Positions 3,068 to 61,384 of a DNA stretch of 64,000 bases are shown here, in pieces. The stretch lies in assembly GCF_013402815.2 (NCBI RefSeq), contig NZ_CP084880.1, positions 62,001 to 126,000 on the forward strand. Direction: 5' to 3'. The DNA comes from Natrinema halophilum. Lineage in GTDB: Archaea; Halobacteriota; Halobacteria; Halobacteriales; Natrialbaceae. The first letter of the stretch is position 1. The number at the start of each line of letters is the position of its first letter. A program made the translations under genes and the position numbers. The notes under the pieces were generated by a model. It searched no databases, was not told where the DNA came from, and saw only the letters and a program-made list of their open reading frames with translations.

Positions 3068-4228
3068 TCAAAGCTTGTTAATCTGGGCAGCTATTCGGGT
3101 TGCTGTGAGGTTTAGCGCACCTCGAGCCCCACCGCCGTCATCACGGAGTGAGATCGGCGGAAGACTCGACGGCCGCTCCCGTTCTGCGCGCGTCTGGGGG
3201 AGTTGGAGTCGTCCGATACCAGGGACCGACACACCGGGCGGTTTCGAGTCGTCGTCGGTCTCACCGTCAAGCGTCCCCACCGCGGAATCGAGCGGAATGG
3301 CACCAAGTAACGGGACGCTGAACTCTTCACACAACCTGCTGGCCCCGCCAGAATCGAATATTTCGTGGGCGGAACCGCAATCAGGACACTCGAAGCTCGT
3401 CATATTTTCGACGATGCCCAGCACGGGAACGTCATACTCGGCGAAGCCACGGAGACCACGGCGCGCATCGTCGAGAGCCACTAGCTGCGGTGTCGTAACG
3501 ATGACTGCGCCCGTAACCGGCAAATGCTGGATAAGCGACAGTTGGGCGTCGCCGGTCCCCGGGGGCATATCGACGATCAGGTAGTCCAGTGCGCCCCAGG
3601 CTACGTCGCCGAACAGTTGCTTGATGAACTCGTCGACGAGCGGTCCACGCCAGATGACTGGATCGTCTTCTCCGGTGATGAATCCGATACTCATGACCTT
3701 CACGCCGTGAGCTTCACGTGGGACCATCTCGTCAGCCTGCGTTGCCCCTGGCTTCCGTTCTCCGAGGCCAAGCATAGCAGGCGCATTCGGGCCGTACACG
3801 TCCGCATCCAGAAGTCCAACGGAGGCACCGGCCTCTGAGAGTGCAGTTGCGATATTTACCGCGATGGTACTTTTACCGACTCCACCTTTGCCGCTGCTGA
3901 CTGCCACGACGTTCTTGACGTCGGGAATGAACTCGACCCGAGTACCGGGATCGGAAACGACCGGCTCGAACCGGCATTCGACCGTCGAGACGCTATCGAT
4001 GGCCTGTACGGCACGTCGCACGTCGCGTTCGACGACTGCTCGGAGGCTATCCGACGGAACTGGGAGGGTCACCGTCACTATTACTGCGTCGTCGATGATT
4101 GTCACATCAAACGCCTCGAGCGCGGTGACGTCCGGGAACCGGACATCCTCTCCAATCGAGGCCGCTGCGAGCGCGCTCGATACCGCCTCGGCGGTATCGG
4201 ACTGGTCTTCCTGCATGGAATCAGTCAT
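3068..4228 (-). CDS. apbC: Mrp/NBP35-type Fe-S cluster carrier P-loop ATPase
   Basis: A 386-residue protein with an N-terminal MIP18/DUF59-like domain (about 15-95), then a deviant Walker A KGGVGKST (114-121), the switch motif DMPPGTGD and a CPDC pair in FECPDCG that would hold a bridging Fe-S cluster. The family transfers [4Fe-4S] clusters to apoproteins in the cytoplasm. The ATG at 4228 overlaps the stop of the molybdoenzyme gene by 8 bp (ATGACTGA), so the two are translationally coupled. The carrier is likely dedicated to maturing this cluster-rich enzyme. An alternative ATG lies at 4216. The C-terminus carries about 50 residues beyond the usual Mrp core, ending TRIAAQINKL. Confidence 0.9.
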   Translation of the reverse strand: MTDSMQEDQSDTAEAVSSALAAASIGEDVRFPDVTALEAFDVTIIDDAVIVTVTLPVPSDSLRAVVERDVRRAVQAIDSVSTVECRFEPVVSDPGTRVEFIPDVKNVVAVSSGKGGVGKSTIAVNIATALSEAGASVGLLDADVYGPNAPAMLGLGERKPGATQADEMVPREAHGVKVMSIGFITGEDDPVIWRGPLVDEFIKQLFGDVAWGALDYLIVDMPPGTGDAQLSLIQHLPVTGAVIVTTPQLVALDDARRGLRGFAEYDVPVLGIVENMTSFECPDCGSAHEIFDSGGASRLCEEFSVPLLGAIPLDSAVGTLDGETDDDSKPPGVSVPGIGRLQLPQTRAERERPSSLPPISLRDDGGGARGALNLTATRIAAQINKL

Positions 4229-7200
4229 CGTCGCCGGCGGCCGAGGAGGAACCGGCATAGTCCGAACCGCGGTCGACATCCCACTTATCGGGCCGTCCCA
4301 CGGGACCGTCCACGTACCACGCGTCGTCTTGGCCGTCTTCGGTCGGGGGCGCGACCGGCCGCTTCAGCCATTTCGGACGACGCAACTTATTCGGGCCGGG
4401 TGCAGGCTTCGTATCCTCCTTCCATTCCCGATAAATCTCCATCGACTTGTCTGTGTCCACGTAGACGTCGCCGTAGTAATCGTCCTCTTTCGCGGGAATA
4501 ACGGTGACGTGCTGGTGCCAGCAGTGCATCCCCGAGATGGGGTCCGGATGCGGCGCGTGCGTGAGGTTCTGGGCCACGCCGCCGTCGTTCCACCAGACGC
4601 GTTCGCTGTCCGGATCGGTGCTCTCGAAGGGTTTGATCCCCTCTGTCTGGCGCATCCCCCACTGATTCTGCTCGTTGTCGAGATCGACTGTGACCTTTCC
4701 GTAGGGGTCACCACCCTCCTTGGAGTCGGTATCAACGTCTTCCCGGTCGATTTTCCACTGCCCCATGTGGTGGGACATCGCGATGATTCCGGGTTTGATA
4801 CTCTCGGTCACCCAGGCTTCGTTCACGAAGTAACCGATGTCAGTCTCGACACGGACGAGGTCGCCAGTCTCTACGCCGAGTCGGGCCGCGTCTTTCGTGT
4901 GAATCCAGACCGGATTGTTGTGGGATATCTCCTCTAGGTACTTGGAGTTCGAAGAGCGCGAGTGAATCTGAGTCGGCAGCCGGAAAGTCGGCACGAAAAC
5001 CATCTCATCTTCGTGGTAGTCGATTTCTTCCGGATGGACGTGGGATTTGATGTAGTGAGGAAGTGTGTACTTGTCGTCGTCCCAGCCCCATTCTTCCATC
5101 GTTTTCGAGTAGAACTGCTGTTTCCCGGTCGGAGTGGGGAACCCTCGCTTTGGCTCGCCGTCGACCATCACACCGAGCACATCCGAGCCATCTACTTCGG
5201 AGTAGTACTCCGGTTCCTCCCCGCGTCGAATCGTCCCGTAGTCGTCGACCCAGACGTCATCCTCTTCCAGAACGCTCTCGTCGAGGGGTTCCTCGTGGAT
5301 CTCGTAGTCGTTCGTCGATGCCTCGAATGCCCCGTGGTGTTTCATGTACTCCAGCGGGGTCATATCCTTCTCCTCGGCTAATTCGACGAGTTTGTCCTCG
5401 TTCTCAAAGATGTACCGGTAGTACTCGTCGATGGTCATTTTGACCGGCTCATCCCCGTCTCCGTCGCGGTACGGTGACTCGAAGTATTCGCGAATGCCGA
5501 GTTCGCCGTCCTCGTCGACCTTCCAGGAGAGGTCGAGCCAGAACTCGTCTTCCTCCCACACTTCACCCGGGTTAGCCTCGTACGTCCGATCTATGTTCTC
5601 ACCTTCGCGTTCGGCGTACTCGCGGTGGACGGGCTGTCGATAGGTGACCCAGGTGCCGGCGTGGGTCTCCTGACTCTGTATGTCGTGGCGTTCAGGACTG
5701 TGGCCCATCGGTAGAACGTAGTCGGCGAAGTAAGCCGTCTCATTCCAGGTGGGCGTGAGCGCGACGTGCATGCCGACCTTGTCCTCGTCGGTGAGTGCTT
5801 CGATCCACGAGAATCCGTCGGGGTACGTGTAGACGGGGTTGAATACCCGCGTGAAGTATACCGAGAGCTTCCCTCGCCCTTCTTTGAGGAAGTACGGGAG
5901 GAGCTGGCTCATCTCGTAATGACCGAACGGCCATTCCTCCGGGAGTTGCATTTCATCCCATAGCTTCTGGCGCGGCGGTTCGTTCGGAAGCTCCGGATCG
6001 AACTTGTGCCAGGCGTTAGGGGAGGTACCCCCCTCTGTGCCGACGCTTCCGGTGAGTACCGATAGGAAGTGAAGCGTCCGTGAAACCTGCCAGCCGCCCT
6101 TATTGCCCGAGGCAGCCGACCGCCAGATGTGACTGGCGAACTGGTTACCGGCTTTTCCGATCTTGCGGCCGATCTTCCGGATCTTCTCGGCGTCGACGCC
6201 GCTTTCAGCTTCGGCGTATTCGGGCGTGAAGTCGGCGTATATCTCCTGTAGAACTTCGATGTACGTCTCGAAGGTGACTTCGCGGTCTGGATGTTTCTCT
6301 TCGAGGAACTGCTGCCAGTTGACCCACGACTCCATGAATTCACGGTCGTACATCCCTTCGTCGATGATAACGTTGGCCATCGCCAGCAGCACCGCCGCCT
6401 CGCTGCCGGGCTGGGACGGCAGCCAGTAGTTCGCCATGGCTGCGGTGTTCGACAATCGTGGGTCGAGGACGGCGAGTTCGCCGCCTTCCATGACCCCCTC
6501 CATGATGCGCTGTGCGTGCGGATTGAAGTAGTGGCCCGACTCCAGGTGGGCCGATAGCAGCAGGATGAAGTCGGCGTTGGCGAAGTCGGCGCTCGGCCGG
6601 TCGTACTTGTGCCAGAGGCCATAGCCCGCCCGTGCACCAGCGCTACAGATGTTTGTGTGAGAGTTGTGTCCGTCAAGCCCCCACGCGTCGATCACGCGGT
6701 CCATGTACTCCTCGTGGCCGGGACGTCCGACGTGGTACGTGATCTCGTTTTCTCGTTCGTCCAGGATGGTCTCGCGCATCTCCGAGGCGATGTCGTCGAG
6801 GGCTTCTTCCCAGGAGATGCGTTTCCACTGGCCCGACCCGCGCGGCCCGTCCCGCTTGAGTGGATACTTGATCCGCTCCGGGTCGTTTAACTGGTTGATC
6901 GTTGCAGGCCCCTTGGCACAATTACGCCCGCGAGAGCCGGGGTGTTCGGGGTTCCCCTCGATTTTCCGGATATCGCCAGTTTCCTTGTCAATGTAGGTCA
7001 GGAGGCCGCAACCGGCTTCACAGTTGAAACAGGCCGTCGGGACGACCGAATAGTCGCGTGGTTCGCCTGACGATTCGTACTCCGTCCAGTCGTTCCACTT
7101 TTCCGGATCAGGGTAGGAACTCAGGCCGTCGATTCCAGCCGGCGTCACTCTGTCGCTCTGTCCTTGTCGTTGCTTCGGCGTGTCAGTCGATCGGTTCGAT

Positions 7201-7259
7201 ATCAGGCCGAGTTTCTCGGCGAACTTTTCTATCCGACTTGGATCAAAATCTTGTCCCAT
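4221..7259 (-). CDS. Molybdopterin oxidoreductase, catalytic subunit of a complex iron-sulfur molybdoenzyme
   Basis: A 1012-residue member of the DMSO reductase family. Residues 77-114 hold the N-terminal [4Fe-4S] motif C77-x2-C80-x3-C84-x29-C114. Cys205 in NICSAGAR sits where the Mo ligand is expected. The C-terminal MopB cofactor-binding domain includes SHNNPVWIHTKDAARLG and TGDLVRV. Sulfur/polysulfide, thiosulfate and tetrathionate reductases and several uncharacterised enzymes share this plan, so the substrate is open. There is no Tat RR motif in the first 70 residues, which suggests a cytoplasmic active site, unlike most haloarchaeal DmsA or NarG proteins. It starts 4 nt after the stop of the Fe-S/NrfD gene and overlaps the Fe-S carrier gene. 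Confidence 0.9.
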   Translation of the reverse strand: MGQDFDPSRIEKFAEKLGLISNRSTDTPKQRQGQSDRVTPAGIDGLSSYPDPEKWNDWTEYESSGEPRDYSVVPTACFNCEAGCGLLTYIDKETGDIRKIEGNPEHPGSRGRNCAKGPATINQLNDPERIKYPLKRDGPRGSGQWKRISWEEALDDIASEMRETILDERENEITYHVGRPGHEEYMDRVIDAWGLDGHNSHTNICSAGARAGYGLWHKYDRPSADFANADFILLLSAHLESGHYFNPHAQRIMEGVMEGGELAVLDPRLSNTAAMANYWLPSQPGSEAAVLLAMANVIIDEGMYDREFMESWVNWQQFLEEKHPDREVTFETYIEVLQEIYADFTPEYAEAESGVDAEKIRKIGRKIGKAGNQFASHIWRSAASGNKGGWQVSRTLHFLSVLTGSVGTEGGTSPNAWHKFDPELPNEPPRQKLWDEMQLPEEWPFGHYEMSQLLPYFLKEGRGKLSVYFTRVFNPVYTYPDGFSWIEALTDEDKVGMHVALTPTWNETAYFADYVLPMGHSPERHDIQSQETHAGTWVTYRQPVHREYAEREGENIDRTYEANPGEVWEEDEFWLDLSWKVDEDGELGIREYFESPYRDGDGDEPVKMTIDEYYRYIFENEDKLVELAEEKDMTPLEYMKHHGAFEASTNDYEIHEEPLDESVLEEDDVWVDDYGTIRRGEEPEYYSEVDGSDVLGVMVDGEPKRGFPTPTGKQQFYSKTMEEWGWDDDKYTLPHYIKSHVHPEEIDYHEDEMVFVPTFRLPTQIHSRSSNSKYLEEISHNNPVWIHTKDAARLGVETGDLVRVETDIGYFVNEAWVTESIKPGIIAMSHHMGQWKIDREDVDTDSKEGGDPYGKVTVDLDNEQNQWGMRQTEGIKPFESTDPDSERVWWNDGGVAQNLTHAPHPDPISGMHCWHQHVTVIPAKEDDYYGDVYVDTDKSMEIYREWKEDTKPAPGPNKLRRPKWLKRPVAPPTEDGQDDAWYVDGPVGRPDKWDVDRGSDYAGSSSAAGDDD

Positions 7260-7263
7260 GGTA

Positions 7264-9087
7264 TTATGCGAGTGAAATGGTCTGCGGTGCAGTTATCCAG
7301 CAGTACTCGAAGGCGAATAACCCGGCGAGCGCCAGGAGCCCAGCGGAAACGATGGCAGCGACACTCCCGCTGGCGGCGAGTATCACAAGCGGGGCGGCGA
7401 TTCCGACGGCCATGCCGCCGATCCAGAATGCCCGTGCAAATTCGCCGCGGGTGATCCGTGCGGCCGCCTCCTCTGCGTCTTCGGTCTGGTGAGGCGTGAA
7501 GATCTCCGAGGTCACGAGGGCCAGGTGGAGGATCAGGCCAGCCCCGAGGAGGAGCCGTGATGGATCGACGAGTCCGTCGTAGCCTGCAATCCCGAGCATG
7601 GCGGTCGTCGCGCTGCCCGCGATGATCGCCTGGGTGAACATGTGCAGCGGCATCGCGGGGCTCTGCCAGAGGTCGCGTCCCTTCGACTGGCTGAAGAGGA
7701 ACGCAGTGTAGATGGCCGTCGAAGCGGCGAGTACTGCACCAACGGCCAGGATTGCTGGATTCGTCACAAGCGACTCGAGGCCCAGGAACCAGCCGAGGAG
7801 CACCAGGGCGAGATAGCCGCCAAATGCGGTGATGATGTACGCGCCCTTCACGAGCCATGATGTCCAGTTCGGTCGCAAGAGGACCCAGTGGAACCGTTTC
7901 GGCTGTTCAAGATCCAGGATGAGTAAAACACCGGTGAGCCCGAGGAAGACGGTACTCATGACGGCGCTCACGCCAACAAGCGTGGCGTTTGGATCGATAA
8001 ATCCGGCGATCATCAGCAGGGCTGGAATCATGAAGACACCAGCGGAGATCGATTTCGTCCAGGTGTAGGAGTATACCTCCCAACCCCAGGATTTGTAATG
8101 GTTTTCGCCGATATCGTAGACGCGCGTTACCTCCTCGTGGATGAGTTCATAGGCCCGTTCGGTCCGGGATTTCTCAGGCCCTTCGGTGGTACGTGTCCCA
8201 TTAGCGGTACTGCTCGAAGGGACACCGCCGTCCGAAGCAACTTGCGAGTCGCGTTCGCTTTGACAGCCGCAGTTCCCGCCGCAAGCACAACCACCGTCGG
8301 ATCTGGCCGCGGACTCAACCGCGGCCCTGGCTTCGTCCTCATCCCCTGAGAATCGGATATCGGACTCTGCCAGCGACTCGGCGGCACGCTGGAGGTCGAA
8401 GTCCTCGCGTTCACCCCCTTCTACCTCGGTGTTGTGTGGTGCGTCACTCCACATATAGTGGTCTTCACGGCCAGATGTGCCGGGCGTGGTGCTCCCCTCG
8501 TCACCGTCGACGTAGAAGAGCTTTGGCTCGGTCCCTTTCTCCGGTTTTCGCGCCTGAACTTCCTGTCGGGACATGGTTGCTGTGATCTCAGTATCATTGT
8601 CCTCCATGTCTCCTGAAATGATCGCATCTTCCGGGCAGACGGTGACGCAGGCCGGTTCACGACCTGCATCCACGCGATGCGAGCAGTAATTACACTTCGC
8701 GGCAGTCGATGTCTCCGGGTCGATGTAGAGCGCGTCGTAGGGACAGCCCTGCATACACGCGACACAGCCGATACAGCGATCCGGATCGAAGTCAACGATG
8801 CCGTCTTCGCGCTCCCAGAGTGCTGTTACCGGGCAGACATCGGTACACGGTGAATCGTCGCAGTGATTACATCGCATCACCGAAAAGTTACGGTTCGTAT
8901 TCGGGAATTCTCCCTTCTCGATCTGTTTCACCCAGGTCTTGTTGACACCGATGGGATCGTCGTGTTCAGCCTTGCACGCTACTGTGCAGGCGTGGCACCC
9001 GATGCATTTGCGGTTATCAATAATGAATCCGTAGTTGGTAATAGTGACCACCGGTACGTGTTGGTATGAACGTGTATCGAACACCAC
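7264..9087 (-). CDS. Fusion of four-cluster ferredoxin subunit and NrfD-type membrane subunit
   Basis: A 607-residue fusion of two subunits that are usually separate. Residues 25-155 carry sixteen Cys in four groups (CIGCHACTVACK, CNHCDDSPCTDVCP, CIGCVACMQGCP and CNYC...CVTVCP), enough for four [4Fe-4S] clusters, as in DmsB/NrfC/PsrB. Residues 165-340 form an acidic linker with an extra motif CACGGNCGC (267-275). Residues 345-607 hold about eight hydrophobic helices of NrfD/PsrC type, which exchange electrons with quinone. No ATG lies near the N-terminus. GTG at 9087 is used here, and GTG at 9051 would start just before the ferredoxin fold. An AT-rich TATA-like stretch (about 9118-9133) precedes it. 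It is the first gene of a three-gene operon. Confidence 0.9.
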   Translation of the reverse strand: MVFDTRSYQHVPVVTITNYGFIIDNRKCIGCHACTVACKAEHDDPIGVNKTWVKQIEKGEFPNTNRNFSVMRCNHCDDSPCTDVCPVTALWEREDGIVDFDPDRCIGCVACMQGCPYDALYIDPETSTAAKCNYCSHRVDAGREPACVTVCPEDAIISGDMEDNDTEITATMSRQEVQARKPEKGTEPKLFYVDGDEGSTTPGTSGREDHYMWSDAPHNTEVEGGEREDFDLQRAAESLAESDIRFSGDEDEARAAVESAARSDGGCACGGNCGCQSERDSQVASDGGVPSSSTANGTRTTEGPEKSRTERAYELIHEEVTRVYDIGENHYKSWGWEVYSYTWTKSISAGVFMIPALLMIAGFIDPNATLVGVSAVMSTVFLGLTGVLLILDLEQPKRFHWVLLRPNWTSWLVKGAYIITAFGGYLALVLLGWFLGLESLVTNPAILAVGAVLAASTAIYTAFLFSQSKGRDLWQSPAMPLHMFTQAIIAGSATTAMLGIAGYDGLVDPSRLLLGAGLILHLALVTSEIFTPHQTEDAEEAAARITRGEFARAFWIGGMAVGIAAPLVILAASGSVAAIVSAGLLALAGLFAFEYCWITAPQTISLA

Positions 9088-9338
9088 TTAAATCTTGAGA
9101 AAAATACTTGTGTTGGGAATATTTAATATTTAACAAAAACTAAGTAAATAAATACTAAATGTTATTATCAATCTATCTCGATAGAATACTCCAAGGCGGT
9201 CGCGCCGTCATTCGGCAATTCCTACGAACGAGCGAGATACCGTCTTATCATGGGATTTGAGATGCGGCGTGGTATCGAACATATACACTCGCTGCCAAGT
9301 CATCGGATCAGTATCGGCTGCCGAAAACTGATGGGCGA

Positions 9339-9809
9339 TCATTCATCGACGCTATCGATCAGTGTCGTGATATCGTCGAGATATCGCATGGTCTTCCAGA
9401 CCGCGATAAGCCCGTTCATAAGGGCATGTTGACTCATCTCCCCAGGGTAGATGCGATGCTCCAGGAAGATTCGGTGCATGTCCCCAAACCGGACGTTGTT
9501 GTCGTGTTCGTCGTGGAATCCGTAGATGACCGGGACTGCGGTGAGCGTCTCGCGGATTCTCGCGATCAACTTGTTTCGCTGGGTATCAGACAGTTGGTTG
9601 ATACTTGCCTGGATCGATTCACCGTACTCGATCTGTTGGCCGATGAGCACCGGACCGTTCGGCTCTCGTCGGATCACGTGGATCAGCAAGTTCGATATTT
9701 TGACCGTGAAGTTGAATTCTGCAGCGTCGTCCGAAATCTGGTCGACGTTCTCCACGAGATCGTCGTCGATCCAGTTTCGAATCGACTCGGCGTCGGTATG
9801 TTCAGTCAC
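9339..9809 (-). CDS. Unrecognised 156-residue cytoplasmic protein
   Basis: An acidic soluble protein with no signal peptide, membrane segment or Cys motif. It begins TEHTDAESIRNWIDDDL and has a central part AEFNFTVKISNLLIHVIRR that suggests a mixed alpha/beta fold, followed by helical segments. It recalls archaeal DUF2299-type proteins, but I cannot confirm that. The start is GTG at 9809, because an in-frame stop lies about 10 codons upstream and no ATG intervenes. A TTTATC box about 26 nt upstream fits a leaderless transcript from this GTG. It lies 251 bp upstream of the molybdoenzyme operon on the same strand, so it could be a chaperone for it, though it does not look like TorD. Confidence 0.7.
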   Translation of the reverse strand: MTEHTDAESIRNWIDDDLVENVDQISDDAAEFNFTVKISNLLIHVIRREPNGPVLIGQQIEYGESIQASINQLSDTQRNKLIARIRETLTAVPVIYGFHDEHDNNVRFGDMHRIFLEHRIYPGEMSQHALMNGLIAVWKTMRYLDDITTLIDSVDE

Positions 9810-11748: not shown

Positions 11749-13341
11749 TCAGATCGGGTTGATCCCGTGTTTCTTCGGCGGCCAAGTGCCATGCTCGACA
11801 TCCTGTCCGAGTTCGAGTGCGTGCAGGATCCACTTGCGGGTCTCACGGGGGTCGATCACTTCGTCGATACCCATCCCTTCAGCAGCGCGGAGTGCGCCGG
11901 ACCGTTCGGTGAATTTCTCGATCAATGCTTCGCGTTCAGCCTCAGGGTCGTCTGCTTGCTCAACTTGGTGATGGTACGCGATGTCGACGGCCCCTTCGAT
12001 TCCCATCGCCGAGATTTCTGCCGTCGGCCAGACGACCGTGAGGTCGGTATCCGTCCAGTCGCCGAGGGCCATGACGTACTGTCCCAGACCGTAAGCTCGT
12101 CTGATGCCCACGCTTATTTTCGGGACTGTCGCCCGGTTCAATTCGAATACGACTTTCCCTCCGTACTTTGCCAGGCCTTCTTTCTCGGACTCGGGGCCGG
12201 GTAACGTCCCCGGAATATCACACAGAAAGACGAGCGGGATGTGGAAGGCGTCGCACAAGCTCACGAAGTGGGAAGCCTTGACTGCTGCGTCAACGTCGAT
12301 AGTTCCCGCCATTACCTGCGGATTGTTCGCGAGGATCCCGACGGGACGACCACCCATTCGAGCCAGTGTCGTAATGATGTTCTTGGCGTACGTGGATTTG
12401 AGTTCGAAAGTGGAGCCTTTGTCGACGAGGCCCTCGATAACGGTGTACATGTCATACGCTTTGTTCGGATCTGTCGGCACGATGTCCAGGAGCTGTTCTC
12501 TCACCGAGCGCGATGGATCGGTATATGAATCCTCTGTCGGCGGAGATGTACTGGCGTTTTTCGGGAAATACGACAGAAAGAGCTTGATCGTATCGAGCGT
12601 AGCCCTTTCATCTTCACATGCAACGTCGGCGATGCCGCTTTCGTCGACGTGAATCTGTGGCCCGCCCAGTTCTTGCTTCGATATGTCGCGTCCCAACGCA
12701 GCTTCGACGAGCGTGGGCCCTGCGATGCCCATCGTCGACTGATCTTCGACCATCGGAATGAAATCACACATAACGGCTGCGTTCGTGGGACCGCCGAAGC
12801 CCTGCCCCATCATCGCACCGACGAGCGGCACCCAGCCCGAGAGCCGAGACAGGTGCTTTAGTGTGTCCTGATCTCCCTGAGTGAACGCTCGTGCATCCAG
12901 CCCTTCCTGGATACGACGTCCGCTTCCCTCCTGGAGCATCACCACTGGGATCCCGCGACGAAGCGCAAGTTCGAGCGTTCGGGATGTCTTTTTGTCCGCA
13001 GTCCGACCGAGCGATCCGCCCTTAACAGTATAGTCGGGGGCAACGATCGCAACTGATCTTCCGAGGACTTTCCCGACGCCAGTCACCATACCGTCGGCCG
13101 GTGCATCCTCCCTCGTCCAGTCATACACTTCGGGTGTCGTCGGGCTCGGAGCTGCGAGCTTGCCGATCTCGAAGAAGGTATTGTCGTCGCACAGGTATTT
13201 GATCCGTTCACGAGCAGTGAGAGCTCCGCGCGAATGCTGGGAATCAACCGACTCAGGCCGTCCCTCGTCGGAAACATTTCGTTTTTCTTCTAGAACGTCG
13301 TCGAGGAGTTCCCGGGGACTTCGGTCATGTCTGTCTGGCAT
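11749..13341 (-). CDS. Acyl-CoA carboxylase, carboxyltransferase subunit
   Basis: A 530-residue carboxyltransferase (PccB/AccD5/MccB family) that moves CO2 from carboxybiotin to an acyl-CoA such as propionyl-, acetyl- or methylcrotonyl-CoA. The N-terminal crotonase-like half contains RGALTARERIKYL, VKGGSLGRTADKK and MMGQGFGGPTNAAVMCDF. The C-terminal half has CDIPGTLPGPESEKEG and the end KKHGINPI. It is closely similar in plan, length and ending to the carboxyltransferase at 59792-61384. No biotin carboxylase is adjacent, and the only one in the window is at 47250-49106. A TATA-like AAGTTAAAG about 26 nt upstream suggests its own promoter, separate from the liv operon before it. Confidence 0.9.
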   Translation of the reverse strand: MPDRHDRSPRELLDDVLEEKRNVSDEGRPESVDSQHSRGALTARERIKYLCDDNTFFEIGKLAAPSPTTPEVYDWTREDAPADGMVTGVGKVLGRSVAIVAPDYTVKGGSLGRTADKKTSRTLELALRRGIPVVMLQEGSGRRIQEGLDARAFTQGDQDTLKHLSRLSGWVPLVGAMMGQGFGGPTNAAVMCDFIPMVEDQSTMGIAGPTLVEAALGRDISKQELGGPQIHVDESGIADVACEDERATLDTIKLFLSYFPKNASTSPPTEDSYTDPSRSVREQLLDIVPTDPNKAYDMYTVIEGLVDKGSTFELKSTYAKNIITTLARMGGRPVGILANNPQVMAGTIDVDAAVKASHFVSLCDAFHIPLVFLCDIPGTLPGPESEKEGLAKYGGKVVFELNRATVPKISVGIRRAYGLGQYVMALGDWTDTDLTVVWPTAEISAMGIEGAVDIAYHHQVEQADDPEAEREALIEKFTERSGALRAAEGMGIDEVIDPRETRKWILHALELGQDVEHGTWPPKKHGINPI

Positions 13342-47249: not shown

Positions 47250-49106
47250 TCACTCCAGGACGACTAACACGTCGCCCATGTCGATGCTCTCGTCCTCAGA
47301 GACTGCAACTTGTGCGATGGTGCCGCTTCGGGGGGCCACTATATCATTTTCCATCTTCATTGCCTCCAGCACGCAGAGTACGTCGCCGGATTCCACTGCA
47401 TCTCCCTCGTCGACGGCGACGTCGAGAATGGTGCCCTGCATCTCGGCAGTGACCTGTTCGCCGTCGGCTATCGTGGTTGCAGCGGCGTCACCGCCGCTAT
47501 TGCCTCCGTTGGCTTGGTCGGATTGCGCTTGTTTTTGACTGCCGCCATTCATGACAGCGGTAGTGTTCGGCGTTCGAGCCGAACCGTGCTCTTCGAGTGT
47601 TACATCGATGCGCTTGCCGTCGACCTCCAGGGTGTACTCCCGCTCGACGCTGTCCGACGCTTCCTCGGTACTCGCCGACGCTGCCTCCGACCCCCACTGA
47701 TTTTGGGCGTCAACGACGCGTTCAGGGTCCAGTTCCTCGTCCAAGTACTTCGTGTGATGGAGTCCGCCGACGAACGTCTCGTCAGTCAACAGTAACCGGT
47801 GGAGTGGGATGATCGTCGTGATGCCCTCGATGTCGTACTCGGCCAGCGCCCGCTGGGCGCGGCTAATACACTCGTCGCGATCGCCTGCTGAGACGATCAG
47901 CTTCGCGATCATGGAATCGTAATCGGTTACCAACTCGTCACCCTGTCGAAGCGCGTCGTCGACCCGGACACCGATACCGCCCGGTGGATCGTACGTCTCG
48001 AGGGTGCCGCCAGTCGCTGGCGAGAACTCCTCTGCAGCGTTTTCAGCGTTGATCCGGAATTGTATGGCGTGGCCGTCGATATCGATATCGTCCTGGGAGA
48101 AGGCGAGTTCCTCATCGGCTGCCACTCGCAGTTGCCATTTCACGATGTCGATCCCGGTGATCTCTTCGGTAACCGTGTGTTCGACCTGGATACGGGTGTT
48201 AACCTCGAGGAAGTAGAAGTTATCGTCGATATCGAGCTTCTCGCTTGGGTCCCGATTAGGGTCATCTTCGACGAGGAATTCGACGGTCCCGGCGTTAGAG
48301 TAGTCGGCGGCGCTCACGCCTCGCCGTGCGGCTTCGCCGATTTGTTCGCGTAAGTCGTCTGTAAGCTCGGAACTCGGCCCTTCTTCGACGACCTTCTGGT
48401 GACGGCGCTGGAGCGAACAATCCCGCTCCCCGAGGTGACAGACATTCCCAAGCTGGTCGGCGAGTATCTGGACCTCGATGTGGCGTGGATTGTCGAGATA
48501 CTTCTCGACATAGACCGTTGAATCGTCGAAGTACGCTTCACCTTCGCGCTTGGCTTCTTCGAGTCGATCTTCGATCTCGTCTTCGCTGCGGACTATCTTC
48601 ATGCCGCGCCCGCCGCCGCCTCCTTCGGCTTTAATAGCGACTGGATAGCCGTGTTCGTCTGCGAATTTTCCGACTTCTGTGGGTTCCGTGACCGGATCTA
48701 CCGTCCCGGGAATGATGGGGACATCCGCATCACTCATCACTTTGCGAGCTTCGGTCTTCTTTCCGAGGCGTTCCATCGCACCCGCAGACGGACCAACCCA
48801 CGTGATTCCGTCAGCGGCTTCGACTTTGCTCGCGAACTCTGCGTTTTCCGCGAGAAATCCGTAGCCTGGGTGGATCGCGTCGGCGTCTGCGTTCCGGGCC
48901 ACGTCCAGGATTTCACCGTGATCGAGATAGGAGTCGGCCGCTCTCGACGGACCGACGTTATATGCCTCGTCGGCGTATCTGACGTGCCCGGAGTGTTTGT
49001 CCGCCTCGCTGTAGACGGCGATTGTATCGATCCCCAATTCCTTGCAGGCGCGCATCACCCGGACGGCAATCTCTCCGCGGTTTGCGACGAGTACCTTGTC
49101 AAACAT
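47250..49106 (-). CDS. Acyl-CoA carboxylase, biotin carboxylase fused to biotin carrier
   Basis: A 618-residue alpha subunit. The biotin carboxylase part (1-450) has [18 protein letters not shown], the glycine-rich ATP loop [10 protein letters not shown], and [12 protein letters not shown] and [15 protein letters not shown] variable linker rich in Gly, Asn and Gln (about 520-550) leads to the C-terminal biotinyl domain with EAMKMEND, whose Lys584 carries biotin. It fixes bicarbonate on biotin for a carboxyltransferase. It is the only such subunit in the window, whereas three carboxyltransferases are present (11749, 57590, 59792), so it may serve more than one. ATG at 49106 ([11 protein letters not shown]) is chosen over an upstream in-frame start. 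Confidence 0.94.
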
Positions 49107-49759
49107 TTCTATCAGTTCTACGATAGTGCCATGAACCTCCATATAACTACTCTTTTGGTATCCGATGGCATTCAGATTCAAGTGAAAGGAATGGCGTATG
49201 GCGGTTTCAATGCGGTCTATGACTGAACATGCATGCTTCAGTGTAGTATCGGCCAGTTCGACGTGTTTTCGTAGACGAGAGGCAACGCTGTGACTGGCGA
49301 TGATTGCAGTATTCAGCTCTATCTTGCTTCCCCTTTAAAGTCCATCCGAATACCAAAGTTATACTATTATTTACAATTCACCAGAACATGACCGGATATA
49401 TAAAAAGCTGACTTTCAAGCGAACCCAGGGAGAGGCTATACGACGACGCGCATTGCGGCGTCGGCACTGTCCTGATAGGCTTGCCCATGCGATCTGGCTG
49501 GCACCTGAGGTGCCGTTTGCGTCGTGAACCCGTCGTTAAGTTCTTGGACCAGTCCAGGATGCGCCATTGCGCGTCGACAGAGCGTGTTCGTGTAGTGAGT
49601 AGTGCGCTGGTTCTCATCTCATGGTCAACGAGACCCCCAAGTACACTCACGTTGAACTTCTCCGTTACTTGTCGGTCGTGCCGGCACACCACCGGGTCGC
49701 CAGCCACCTGATTCAGTACTTTAGAAAGGTTATTGGTTATCATATCAATATATTGCATA
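49107..49759. other. 653-bp region without a recognised gene
   Basis: The long frames here are rich in Arg and Ser and show no family match. The left part is AT-rich near 49360-49400. A TATA-like ATCAATATATTG (about 49745-49756) sits just before the FAH gene. It may hold remnants of an inserted element, but none could be identified. Confidence 0.4.
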
Positions 49760-55811: not shown

Positions 55812-57503
55812 CTACACATCGTCGGCCATCTCATCTATGGCCGTCCGATCTGTTTTGCCGATCTCGGTCGTTGGGACGGCATCTACGAACGCGATGGTCC
55901 GCGGCCGCTTGTACGGAGCCAGACGCTCTTTCGCCCACTCGATGATCTCCTCCTCGGTGACAGATTCGTCGGATAGTTCGACGAACGCAACAGGTTCTTC
56001 GCCCTTCTCCGGGTGCGTCTTCCCGGCGACGGCGGAGTTCTCGACGTGCTCGTTGTCCTGGAGGACGAGTTCCACTTCCTCGGGGACGACCTGGTAACCG
56101 CTGTACTTGATAAGGTTCTTCTGGCGACCCAGGTAGTAGAGGTAGCCGTCGTCGTCGAGGTAGCCGATGTCACCTGTCAGGAACCAGCCGTCCTCGAGGG
56201 CGTCAGCGGTCGCCTCCGGATTGTTCCAGTACCCCTTCAGTAACGATGGACCGCGGTACATGATTTCGCCCTCTTCCCCACGCGGAAGTTCCTCCCCAGT
56301 CTCGGGGTCTCTGATGACGATTTCGCCGCCGTAATGCGGAAGGCCAACGAACCCTTCTTCGACGATATCCATCCGGTTCGTGAATGTGACGCCGTTGTGC
56401 GCCTCGGTAAAGCCGTATCCGCCTTCGAGTACCCTGGACCCGGTGAGTTCTGTCCACTCATCACTGATCTGTTCGGTCAATTTCTCGGAGAAACTCACCG
56501 CCGCGCTGTACTTGAAGGATGTAAGATCGTACTCGTTGCGGTCTGGATGATCGAGAATGTCGTTGACGATGGATGTCGTCATGTAATTTCGCGTGGGCCG
56601 GTATTCCTCGGTCAGCGCCATCATCGTCTCTGGATCGTAGCGGGTCATCAGGATGACCGTTCCACCATGGATGACGACGGCATCGAGGCTCAGACACTTC
56701 CCGCCGATATGATAGATGGGGAGCGTCGCGAGGTGGCGATCGTCGACATTGAATTCCCACACAGTGGCGATGTTCACCGACTCGATCAGCATCGTCTCGT
56801 GTGTATGTTCACAGCCTTTGGGCAGCCCGGTCGTTCCGCCGGTGTACACCAGCGTGGCCGTATCATCCATCGATACGTCCACCTCAGGCGGATCTGGCTG
56901 CGTGGTCTGGAACACCGACGCGAGGTACCTATTTTGTTCGTCCGTAGGTTTGCGATCCTGTTGGGTCGCCGCCGACATCGATTCGTGAATGTCAACCGCG
57001 GGCTCGTCGGGGAGAAACGTTTCGTAACGAGTGTAGATCACGTCACGAATGCTCACCTCATCAACGACTGATTCGACCACGTCTGAGAGCGAATCGTGCG
57101 CCAGGATGACATTTGCACCTGTGTCTTCGATCTGATACTTGAGCCGATAGGTCTTCGAGAGCGGATCACACGGGACTGCGATCATTCCGAGTTTGTACGC
57201 CGCATAGTAGCCGATGTAGAGTTGTGGACAATTGGGCAGGTACAGGAGCAAGACGTCACCAGCACTGTATCCCTGTGCGGCCAGATGGGTGGCAAGCCGA
57301 TCCGAAAACCTGTCCCACTCGCGATAGGATATTTCTCGCCCGTAGTAGTTTATCGCCACGCTGTCCGGTTGATTTCGGGCATGATGGCGGAGGTACTGAT
57401 GGACCGGTACCTTCCCGAGGGGGTAGTCTGGTTCATCCGGGATGCCGTCAGGAAAGTCCACAGTCTCCGCCGAGACGCCATATGTATACTCCGAACCTGT
57501 CAT
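55812..57503 (-). CDS. AMP-forming acyl-CoA ligase
   Basis: A 563-residue ANL ligase with VYTGGTTGLPKGCEHTHE (P-loop, with Gly in place of Ser), GGYGFTEAHNGV, WFLTGDIGYLDDDGYLYYLG and KNLIKYSGYQVVPEEVE. The A10 Lys appears in TTEIGKTDRTAI. It belongs to the long-chain/4-coumarate type branch. It lies 86 bp downstream of the fused carboxyltransferase gene on the same strand, so they may be co-transcribed. ATG at 57503 (MTGSEYTYGVS) is chosen over the extended frame. Confidence 0.9.
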   Translation of the reverse strand: MTGSEYTYGVSAETVDFPDGIPDEPDYPLGKVPVHQYLRHHARNQPDSVAINYYGREISYREWDRFSDRLATHLAAQGYSAGDVLLLYLPNCPQLYIGYYAAYKLGMIAVPCDPLSKTYRLKYQIEDTGANVILAHDSLSDVVESVVDEVSIRDVIYTRYETFLPDEPAVDIHESMSAATQQDRKPTDEQNRYLASVFQTTQPDPPEVDVSMDDTATLVYTGGTTGLPKGCEHTHETMLIESVNIATVWEFNVDDRHLATLPIYHIGGKCLSLDAVVIHGGTVILMTRYDPETMMALTEEYRPTRNYMTTSIVNDILDHPDRNEYDLTSFKYSAAVSFSEKLTEQISDEWTELTGSRVLEGGYGFTEAHNGVTFTNRMDIVEEGFVGLPHYGGEIVIRDPETGEELPRGEEGEIMYRGPSLLKGYWNNPEATADALEDGWFLTGDIGYLDDDGYLYYLGRQKNLIKYSGYQVVPEEVELVLQDNEHVENSAVAGKTHPEKGEEPVAFVELSDESVTEEEIIEWAKERLAPYKRPRTIAFVDAVPTTEIGKTDRTAIDEMADDV

Positions 57504-57589: not shown

Positions 57590-59308
57590 TCAAAACAGGA
57601 TGCTGCCGTGCTTCTGATCCGGTGACGGCTTCGTTTCGTACGTCTCCAGCCTGGCTGCCAACTGTTTGCGGAGTCGCGCAGCGGGAATGAGTTCATCGAT
57701 AGCCATCTTGGAGCTCAGTTTGAAAATATCAATATCTTGTCTGTACTCCTCGCGTTTGTCCTCGATGAACTGTTGGCGTTCCTTGGGATCGTCGATCTCC
57801 TCGATTTGATTCGCGTAGACGGCGTGAATTGCCGCTTTCGGCCCCATTACTGCTATTTCGGCGCTCGGAAGGGCGATGGTCGAGTCAGGCTCGAAGGCCG
57901 GACCGCTCATGGCAAAGATGCCGGCACCGTAGGCTTTTCTGACGACGACACAGAACCTCGGCACGGTTGCGTTCGAAGTCGCGTAGATGAACTTCCGTCC
58001 TTTCTGGAGGATCCCTTCGGATTCGACTTGCCTCCCGACCATGAAACCGGGCGTATCACACAGATAAACCAGTGGTATGTTGAACGCGTCGCACTTCCAG
58101 ATGAAACCCGCTGCCTTCTCACTCGAGTCGGGATAGATCGCCCCGCTCCGCGTGTTAGGCTGATTAGCGAGCACGCCGACGGGCCGCCCGTCGATGCGAC
58201 CGAATCCTGTGACTAGTTCGGAAGCGAATGTGGGTTTGAATTCGAGCCACGAATTGTCGTCGATGACGCAATCGATGAGTTCGTGGACGTCGTAGGGAGT
58301 GTTCGGGTTGGCCGGGATAACCGAATTCGTCCGTGACGGGTTCGTCGACGGTTGGGATGGTGACGTCTTCGGCGGCAGTTCTGTGTGGTTCTGCGGAAGG
58401 TACGAGATAACATCCCTGATCCGATCTGCGGCTTCGAATTCGTCGTCGACGACGAGGTCTACGCTACCCGACTCGGTCGCGTGTATGTCCGGTCCGCCTA
58501 GATTCTGCAAGGTCGTTTCCTCGCCAGTAACTTGTTCGATCATGCGAGGACTCGCAATTGACATTGCAGACATCTGGTCGACCATCATCAAGAAATCACA
58601 GAAGACGGGCGTGTACGCGGCCCCGGCTACGCACGGACCGTACAGGACGCCGATCTGAGGGATGTTCCCAGAGGAGCGGGCCTGGTTGAAAAACGTCTTG
58701 CCGCCGCGGTAACGATCGGCGAACAGCCCCGATTGATCGGTAATCCTGGCACCGGCGCTGTCGACCAGAAACAGAATCGGAGCACCGACTTCTTCCGCTC
58801 GTTCCTGGATGCGAAGCTGTTTTTCGGTGCTCATCGTGCTCCGGGTGCCGGCTTTCACCGTGTAGTCGTTCGCGATAAAAAACACCGTTCGGCCGTCGAT
58901 CGTTCCGCTTCCCGTGACGATACCATCTGCCGGAAGCCGGTCGTCTGAGTCATATCTGGCGAAGGTTCCATCCTCCCAATTGATCTCGTCGAAGATCAGA
59001 TCGAGTCGTTCCCTGACGAAGAGTTTCCCTAACTGCTCGATCTTCTCGTGGCCCCGTTCGGGGCCACCTGTGAGAATGTCGTCGATCGCTTCGACCACCC
59101 GCCGCTCTCGTTCCGTCTGGATCTCCTCGTCGGTCGGCCCGTCGTCACCCGTCTCTGCTGGCCCGTCGTCACCCGGCTCTGCTGTTACGACCGTTTCGTC
59201 GCTCGTCGTATCAACGAGTTCGATAGAGTGGCCGAAGTGGTTCGCGACAGCCGTGACGATGGCTATCGCTTCGTCAGATGTCACAGTATCGTCTATCGAG
59301 ATTTCCAT
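57590..59308 (-). CDS. Acyl-CoA carboxylase carboxyltransferase with N-terminal epsilon/PccX-like extension
   Basis: A 572-residue carboxyltransferase. Residues 1-32 (core VTSDEAIAIVTAVANHFGHS) resemble the short helix of acyl-CoA carboxylase epsilon/PccX-type subunits and are followed by an acidic linker with two GDDGP repeats (45-60). The crotonase-like N-half (about 100-310) has SAGARITDQSGLF and GGKTFFNQ, and the C-half has DTPGFMVGRQVESEG and the end KHGSILF. It is a different branch from the other two carboxyltransferases, closer to methylcrotonyl/geranyl-type. Haloarchaeal propionyl-CoA carboxylase needs a separate small PccX, so this fusion could replace it. A biotin carboxylase is not adjacent. 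Confidence 0.85.
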   Translation of the reverse strand: MEISIDDTVTSDEAIAIVTAVANHFGHSIELVDTTSDETVVTAEPGDDGPAETGDDGPTDEEIQTERERRVVEAIDDILTGGPERGHEKIEQLGKLFVRERLDLIFDEINWEDGTFARYDSDDRLPADGIVTGSGTIDGRTVFFIANDYTVKAGTRSTMSTEKQLRIQERAEEVGAPILFLVDSAGARITDQSGLFADRYRGGKTFFNQARSSGNIPQIGVLYGPCVAGAAYTPVFCDFLMMVDQMSAMSIASPRMIEQVTGEETTLQNLGGPDIHATESGSVDLVVDDEFEAADRIRDVISYLPQNHTELPPKTSPSQPSTNPSRTNSVIPANPNTPYDVHELIDCVIDDNSWLEFKPTFASELVTGFGRIDGRPVGVLANQPNTRSGAIYPDSSEKAAGFIWKCDAFNIPLVYLCDTPGFMVGRQVESEGILQKGRKFIYATSNATVPRFCVVVRKAYGAGIFAMSGPAFEPDSTIALPSAEIAVMGPKAAIHAVYANQIEEIDDPKERQQFIEDKREEYRQDIDIFKLSSKMAIDELIPAARLRKQLAARLETYETKPSPDQKHGSILF

Positions 59309-59791
59309 GCCGCCACAATTTCCAGGGCTTACTATTATCTTTTGGGTGTTTGCTCAGGTATTGTTCAGATTAGCCGGATGCACGCGACCACATCGGATAT
59401 CGAAGGTTCCGAGAACACGGACAGTATCTGAACGCGATGATCAAGTCGCATAGAGATGACCACGGACCCCATCGATGGCTTCAGTGTCGCTTCTCGTCTG
59501 TCAAATCTGACTCAAGACAGTCGTTAGAGTCGACGATACGAACGAATTCGGGCAGTCACGCGTCGGGATGGGCTGGATCATCATTCGGACTGCCTCCGAA
59601 CAGTGCCTTCGTTCACGCATCAAATCTCGATGTCCGGGTCACGACTGGAGTTGAACAACGATGAGAAACGGACTGTACATCCTACTATGTGATGGTCGGT
59701 CAGAAACCAGATCTGGCGAGAACACCCTGAATCGATGAGCAGTTGGCTGGTTTTCACAACTATTTTAACTTGCATAAGTGAAACCGCCACT
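59309..59791. other. Divergent region between two carboxyltransferase genes
   Basis: These 483 bp separate the starts of the two carboxyltransferase genes. No convincing gene was found. A TATA box lies at 59761-59768, and the leftward promoter probably lies near 59330-59345, where the sequence is AT-rich. Confidence 0.45.
59761..59768 (+). promoter_or_regulatory. TATA box for carboxyltransferase at 59792
   Basis: TATTTTAA is centred about 27 nt before the ATG at 59792, supporting that start over the longer frame upstream. Confidence 0.6.
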
Positions 59792-61384
59792 ATGGATTCT
59801 GACGACCGGTTGAGTATCGAACAGAAACTTGAGGAAATCCAACAGCTCAAAGCGGAAGTATCCGACGGCAACCGGCCGGAAGCCGTCGAACAGCGCCGGG
59901 AATCTGGCGCACTCACGACGCGGGAGCGCATTGATCATCTCTGTGATGATAACAGTTTCGAGGAGGTCGGGAAACTGGTTTCGCCGATGCCGAGCACACC
60001 CGAGACGTACGACTGGACCCGAGAAGACGCACCCGCCGACGGCCTGGTCGCCGGGGTCGGCGAGATCGACGGAACGCCAGTCTCGATCGCAGCGAACGAC
60101 TTCACCGTCAAAGGCGGGTCTGTCGGGAACACCGGCAACAAGAAGATACAGCGCGTGCTCGATATCGCAGTCCGCAACGGTCACCCCGTGATCCTGCTCA
60201 TGGAAGGCACGGGTGGCCGGATCGAGGAAGGCCTCGACTCCCGCGCATTCGCACAGGGTGACAACGTCGGCATTTTCGATAGACTCACGAAACTGTCGGG
60301 CTGGGCGCCGATCGTTTGTGCCATCCTCGGCCCGGGCTTCGGTGCGCCGACGAACTTCTCAGCGCTCGCAGACTACGTGGTCATGCACTCAGAGCGCGGG
60401 TCGATGGGTATCGTTGGCCCGCCGCTCATTCGCGCTGGTCTCGGAACCGACGTCGAGTACGAGGATTTCGACGCCGAGTTTCACACCCGCGAGACTGGCA
60501 TGGCCGACCGCGCCTTCGAGACCGAGGAAGCGTGCCTCGATTCGATCACCACGTTCCTATCGCACTTCCCAAAAAACGCTGACGGCCAACCGCCGGTCGA
60601 CGAGGGGTACGAACAACCCTACACCGATGACGTTGAAGCGCTCATCGACGTCGTGCCGTCCAACCCGAAGAAGGGCTACGACATTCACGGCGTCCTTGAT
60701 GGGATCGTCGACAGAAACTCGCTATACGAATTGAAGCCAAACTTCGCGCGAAACATCGTCACCGGCTTTGCGCGCATCGAAGGCCAACCTATCGGCATCG
60801 TCGCGAACAATCCGAGATTCCTCGCGGGATCACTCGACGTCAACGCCACCCACAAGACAGCCCGGTTTATCAGTCTGTGTGACGCCTTCGATCTTCCTAT
60901 CGTGTTTCTGGCCGACACCCCTGGGTTCATGCCCGGTCTCGACTCGGAACGCGAGGCGATCGCCCGCCACGGTGCGAAGGTCCTGTACGAACTGAGCCGG
61001 GCGACGACTCCCATTCTTAATGTGACCATCCGCCGGGCCTACGGACTTGGGTATTTTGCGATGGCCGGAGGCGAAACTGTTGACAACGAACTCAGGGCAG
61101 TCTGGCCGTCGGCGGAGATCGCCGTCATGGGTATCGACGGTGCTGTCGACGTGGCCTACCGGCGCGAAATCGAAGCCGCCGACGATCCCAAACAGAAACG
61201 ACAGGAGATCATTGACAAGTTCACGGATCGGACCGGTCCGGTTCGGGCTGCAGAGCACTTCGGCGTCGACAAAGTGTTAGATCCGAGGGAAACACGAAAA
61301 GTCGTTTCGAGAGTCTTAGCGAGATCTTCGTCCCGGAACCCCGATGGCTGGCCGTCGAAAAAACACGGAGTTACACCGATCTGA
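59792..61384 (+). CDS. Acyl-CoA carboxylase, carboxyltransferase subunit
   Basis: A 530-residue paralogue of 11749-13341, the same length and with the same layout (ESGALTTRERIDHL, VKGGSVGNTGNKK, LGPGFGAPTNFSALADY, ADTPGFMPGLDSERE and the end KKHGVTPI). It carries the oxyanion-hole glycines of the crotonase fold in both halves. It has no N-terminal extension of the kind seen in its divergent neighbour. The biotin carboxylase at 47250-49106 is the nearest possible partner. It converges on a monooxygenase-like gene with a 7-bp gap. Confidence 0.92.
   Translation: MDSDDRLSIEQKLEEIQQLKAEVSDGNRPEAVEQRRESGALTTRERIDHLCDDNSFEEVGKLVSPMPSTPETYDWTREDAPADGLVAGVGEIDGTPVSIAANDFTVKGGSVGNTGNKKIQRVLDIAVRNGHPVILLMEGTGGRIEEGLDSRAFAQGDNVGIFDRLTKLSGWAPIVCAILGPGFGAPTNFSALADYVVMHSERGSMGIVGPPLIRAGLGTDVEYEDFDAEFHTRETGMADRAFETEEACLDSITTFLSHFPKNADGQPPVDEGYEQPYTDDVEALIDVVPSNPKKGYDIHGVLDGIVDRNSLYELKPNFARNIVTGFARIEGQPIGIVANNPRFLAGSLDVNATHKTARFISLCDAFDLPIVFLADTPGFMPGLDSEREAIARHGAKVLYELSRATTPILNVTIRRAYGLGYFAMAGGETVDNELRAVWPSAEIAVMGIDGAVDVAYRREIEAADDPKQKRQEIIDKFTDRTGPVRAAEHFGVDKVLDPRETRKVVSRVLARSSSRNPDGWPSKKHGVTPI

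Follow-up and report, generated by a model that had tools for sequence, protein, structure and literature searches.

The gene at 57590-59308 in a 64,000-nucleotide stretch of Natrinema halophilum DNA (the window, meaning the whole stretch analysed) encodes a carboxyltransferase (CT) with an N-terminal module that appears to be related to the small carboxylase subunit PccX. We lean slightly towards the view that this fused CT is the beta subunit of a second, haloarchaea-specific carboxylase type, in which the PccX-like module docks the alpha subunit in cis. The wider proposal, which we regard as evenly poised, is that Haloarchaea possess, nearly class-wide, a second carboxylase whose CT bears a PccX-like module, which is independent of free PccX and which has its alpha subunit in common with the PccB/PccX enzyme. 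How small subunits of the PccX and epsilon kinds support acyl-CoA carboxylases is an unsettled matter on which this protein bears. Because the natural fusion retains only one half of such a PccX-like protein, it suggests which part suffices, and fused CT plus alpha subunit would make the small-subunit role accessible with two genes. The gene and its parts are as follows.

57590..59308, minus strand: fused carboxyltransferase (acyl-CoA carboxylase beta subunit), an open reading frame of 572 residues matching PF01039 (E 1.9e-139).
59174..59308, minus strand: N-terminal module, residues 1-45, conserved in alignments and predicted to be ordered by AlphaFold2.
59225..59305, minus strand: PccX-like core, residues 2-28, strand plus helix, from hhalign, shuffles and whole-genome ranking.
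59114..59173, minus strand: acidic linker, residues 46-65, from the sequence and predicted to be disordered by AlphaFold2, with GDDGP at residues 46-50 and 54-58.
57602..59032, minus strand: carboxyltransferase domain (PF01039), residues 93-569, closest among solved structures to PCC beta subunits such as 1vrg.

The reading frame opens with ATG, a start supported by the relatives, whose N-termini align from the same methionine. The Carboxyl_trans profile (PF01039) scores 465.9 bits against a curated cut-off of 22.3 and is matched over positions 5-492 of 493. On this full-length match the protein is assigned as an acyl-CoA carboxylase beta subunit, and acyl-CoA carboxylation is predicted. Residues 71-570 match the solved PCC/ACC beta subunits (1vrg, 1on3, 1xnv) with E down to 3e-107, whereas the N-terminal module is unaligned, all matches beginning at a residue number of at least 71. 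Pfam and NCBIfam searches of the fused CT likewise gave no match in its first 79 residues. In Streptomyces PccB the specificity residue sits in a CT stretch whose sequence is YGAGIFAMSGPAF in the fused CT and YGGAYCVMASKNL in the PccB of the same genome; given this difference, the substrate of the fused CT may be other than propionyl-CoA. Joined carboxylase parts are also seen in the single-chain long-chain acyl-CoA carboxylase (4rcn), where BC, carrier and CT all lie in one chain. The fused CT, in contrast, joins a small module only, and its BC-carrier gene is separate.

The N-terminal module is conserved. Twenty-three relatives taken from genome records, along with others found in whole genomes, start at the same methionine and follow the pattern M-K-V-R-I-x-x-x-A-T-E-E-E-A-x-A-I-A-x-A-L-A-x-H, then V-E-V-x-V, with a fixed hydrophobic pattern that is kept throughout the class Halobacteria. 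AlphaFold2 gives residues 1-40 of the fused CT a mean pLDDT of 75-81 per ten-residue block and places a helix at 11-25 and strands at 29-33 and 38-43. The N-terminus of one relative (L012), modelled alone over residues 1-73, has a mean pLDDT of 80, with a strand at 2-5, a helix at 11-25 and strands at 29-33 and 41-43. The full-length model of the fused CT is mediocre (mean pLDDT 65, 23 sequences), so the claim is limited to local order: the module is predicted to be a small ordered alpha/beta unit. The preliminary description had counted against itself a lack of similarity to any epsilon/PccX family and a prediction of disorder; similarity to PccX was found, and the extension is predicted to be ordered (pLDDT 75-84). 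Residues 48-65 behind it have pLDDT below 50, and such an acidic, predictedly disordered linker would suit the idea that the whole N-terminus is just an acidic tail of a halophilic protein, disordered and without function. That idea is very improbable, since the module is conserved class-wide with its hydrophobic pattern fixed and is itself predicted to be ordered. Structure searches with the module model (Foldseek and VIA-align) returned nothing at E < 0.001, with a best Z of 2.8; AccE5 is absent from the rows of this search, an absence that excludes nothing. PDB sequence searches with the module and PccX profiles gave chance matches only.

The acidic linker with its doubled GDDGP, as first described, is plainly present. 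The doubling is a 24-nt tandem duplication in the DNA, with 20 of 24 bases identical, and is peculiar to this protein. The linkers of relatives differ in length and sequence and end in a conserved D-x-G-P-T-x-R-E; the doubled motif is therefore a local detail of one protein and no family feature.

The link of the module to haloarchaeal PccX is well supported by profile comparison. In Haloferax mediterranei, Hou et al. reportedly found in 2015 a three-gene propionyl-CoA carboxylase containing PccX with PccB and PccA. This enzyme has a CT of the same superfamily, and the same kind of alpha subunit is available to the fused CT. When 30 modules were aligned with 26 PccX sequences by hhalign, the match was gapless over residues 2-28 (probability 95%, P 3.4e-8). 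Its score of 39.8 compares with a maximum of 18.9 over 300 column shuffles and of 22.0 over 300 shuffles preserving the hydrophobic pattern. A PccX profile run over the six frames of the own genome (4.84 Mb, E up to 10) found three matches: PccX itself and the N-termini of the two fused CTs, with E 0.12 for the one at 57590-59308 and E 0.03 for the other. Over 44 Halobacteria genomes, the best 15 matches behind the PccX-type ones were all fused-CT N-termini (E 2.7e-5 to 0.044, one each in 15 genomes); 14 of these places were cross-checked against the fused-CT genome listing, and the remaining one, in G042, was identified from its own sequence. The likeness thus lies far above chance. A chance likeness arising from haloarchaeal composition is rejected on the whole-genome ranking, which bias alone does not explain because proteins of the same genomes carry the same bias.

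The same results bear on convergence, in which a strand and an Ala/Glu-rich amphipathic helix would dock on carboxylases or cap the CT with no descent from PccX. The match spans 27 residues only, no fold match was obtained, and the reverse search is weak: with the module profile in the own genome, PccX ranks fifth (E 1.2). Shuffles that preserve the hydrophobic pattern nevertheless fail to reproduce the score, and the next-best PccX-profile matches in all frames of whole haloarchaeal genomes are fused-CT N-termini. Convergence is accordingly judged quite unlikely; descent of the module from a PccX-like gene by fusion would account for the likeness.

The kinship extends over part of PccX. Profile matches to fused CTs stop near position 37 of 90, with one reaching 55. 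The N-terminal strand-helix core of PccX is present in the module, whereas the C-terminal half, with 8 of the 12 invariant residues, has no counterpart in the fused CTs by profile matches; its invariant residues in alignment A2 include W51, R71, P77, W81, A83 and R86. The first 32 residues had been likened to an epsilon/PccX subunit; the likeness is to the beta-alpha half, and to no whole PccX. The gamma chain of oxaloacetate decarboxylase (PF04277), likewise a small subunit of biotin enzymes, is weakly matched by several PccX proteins of alignment A2, at E 0.041 for the best of them.

Actinobacterial epsilon (AccE/PccE/AccE5, PF13822) is also a small carboxylase subunit. Its core, a strand and an R-G-x-x-T-x-E-E-x-A-A helix, aligns with the module in the same register, but weakly: against a 12-sequence epsilon profile hhalign gave P 0.006 and a score of 16.4, with a shuffle maximum of 16.7. 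The Pfam ACC_epsilon profile (PF13822) has no match in the fused CT, in its N-terminus or in any module of alignment A1, does not match PccX proteins and, over 21 genomes, found nothing at PccX or the module in the own genome. Epsilon is, moreover, encoded by a separate gene downstream of beta, unlike the built-in module. The link to actinobacterial epsilon is only suggestive. The resemblance to small carboxylase subunits that the preliminary description had extended to both groups, and proposed to check by profile search, therefore holds for haloarchaeal PccX and is weak for epsilon, on which Pfam is silent. When epsilon is removed from a Streptomyces carboxylase, catalytic efficiency drops markedly, and the same paper gives this subunit an important role in assembly and stability (PMC13118682). 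Mycobacterium smegmatis cannot do without accE5 (PMC4064979).

A maximum-likelihood tree built from CT domains, with the module left out, places 16 fused CTs in one group (support 100/100). Haloarchaeal PccB stands apart from them and groups with Thermotoga PccB. Long branches meet in this tree, and the exact attachment point of the fused clade is unsure. The carrier of the module is thus a deeply branching CT clade, which agrees with the separate carboxylase type suggested at first. The fusion suggested along with it is real in that the module is built into the CT frame, but it is no isolated case, its family being spread across the class Halobacteria. Two further CT genes of the window, at 11749-13341 on the minus strand and 59735-61384 on the plus strand, belong to a different clade and are without an N-terminal module. 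Near the closest relatives of the fused CT at 57590-59308, an enoyl-CoA hydratase and a protein of the beta-keto acid cleavage enzyme family are found in L114 and L117, a hint of a pathway; enoyl-CoA hydratase lies near such relatives in L118, L119 and L020 as well.

PccX is arranged differently from the module, which is part of a CT reading frame. Standalone pccX has PccB inside its 6-kb locus in 20/20 loci checked. In the own genome (L031), what we take to be the canonical pccB lies at 5956-7581, with a standalone pccX at 5592-5951 immediately behind it, and a pccA gene is also present; these names are presumed from gene order and from the haloarchaeal propionyl-CoA carboxylase. A simple PccB-PccX fusion is rejected, since the fused CTs form a clade separate from PccB and lack the second half of PccX.

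The fused CT is widespread. With the protein at 57590-59308 as query (E up to 1e-120), 170 of the 194 Halobacteria genomes sampled gave a match, mostly one each. When 148 genomes sampled from the phylum were searched with the module profile (E up to 1e-5), matches came from 17, all in the order of Natrinema halophilum (24 genomes sampled), and from 0 of 124 more distant ones; all but one of its matches sit within open frames of at least 580 residues. An alpha gene (biotin carboxylase plus carrier) occurs in 184 of the 194 genomes. The fused CT is present in 170 of these 184, whereas none of the 10 genomes lacking alpha has it (Fisher p 1.2e-10, with no correction for kinship among the genomes). 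Searches for PccB (E up to 1e-200) and for PccX (E up to 1e-3) hit an identical set of 183 genomes and found neither in the other 11. G031 is among these 11, yet it carries an alpha gene together with a fused CT whose N-terminus is a typical module. G014 and G020 show the reverse, PccB and PccX with no fused CT at threshold. By these counts the fused CT is separable from PccB/PccX. G031 is a draft of about 20 contigs in which a single gap could hide the neighbouring pccB and pccX, so that it is a lead and no proof. Given the class-wide spread, haloarchaeal annotation may merge two carboxylase types.

The candidate partner and the adjacent gene lie in the window as follows.

47250..49181, minus strand: alpha subunit (biotin carboxylase plus biotin carrier), candidate partner of the fused CT and one of two in the genome, from Pfam and the genome search.
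55812..57503, minus strand: acyl-CoA ligase (AMP-binding), the next gene on the same strand, putatively in an operon with the fused CT by its position.

In six related loci (L004, L008, L016, L017, L019 and L022) and in G129, the gene immediately upstream of the fused CT encodes alpha. The own genome holds seven CT genes (E up to 0.001) and two alpha genes, and most genomes of the class hold one alpha gene; because alpha genes are so few, the alpha subunit is probably shared among CT types.

Under the explanation towards which we lean, the CT domain would assemble into a hexameric core, as is usual in its family and seen in its solved relatives. The N-terminal module, kin to the beta-alpha half of PccX, would be tied to this normal CT by the flexible acidic linker, which would give it reach. 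Each built-in module would take on in cis the part that the separate small subunit presumably plays for PccB, and one module per CT would, as suggested at first, fix the stoichiometry, at a 1:1 ratio. By analogy with epsilon, it may help to dock the biotin-carboxylase/biotin-carrier alpha subunit onto the CT core, and the alpha subunit so recruited would be common to several CT types. Counting for this explanation are the likeness to PccX, the predicted order of the module, the co-occurrence with alpha, G031, the upstream alpha genes and the role of Streptomyces epsilon. Half of PccX only, the weak reverse search, the lack of a structural match and the draft state of G031 count against it, and together these leave it just on the probable side. 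A module related to PccX could have another job, excluding free PccX or selecting alpha without itself supporting activity. Separating assemblies would help where the fused CT and PccB/PccX coexist, as they do in nearly all fused-CT genomes, and the module lacks the C-terminal half of PccX; G031, however, retains the module, and searches of that draft found neither PccB nor PccX. This other role seems rather unlikely.

Two repeats were noted in the loci compared. In L032, close to the other fused CT, an open frame at 3256-4095 on the plus strand is a tandem repeat built from SMWECLPIRIAVGVSADSNRRGSVCRFE-like units. In L034, an open frame at 9051-9428 on the plus strand has a long CRRCRRCRR run at its end, which is a simple DNA repeat.
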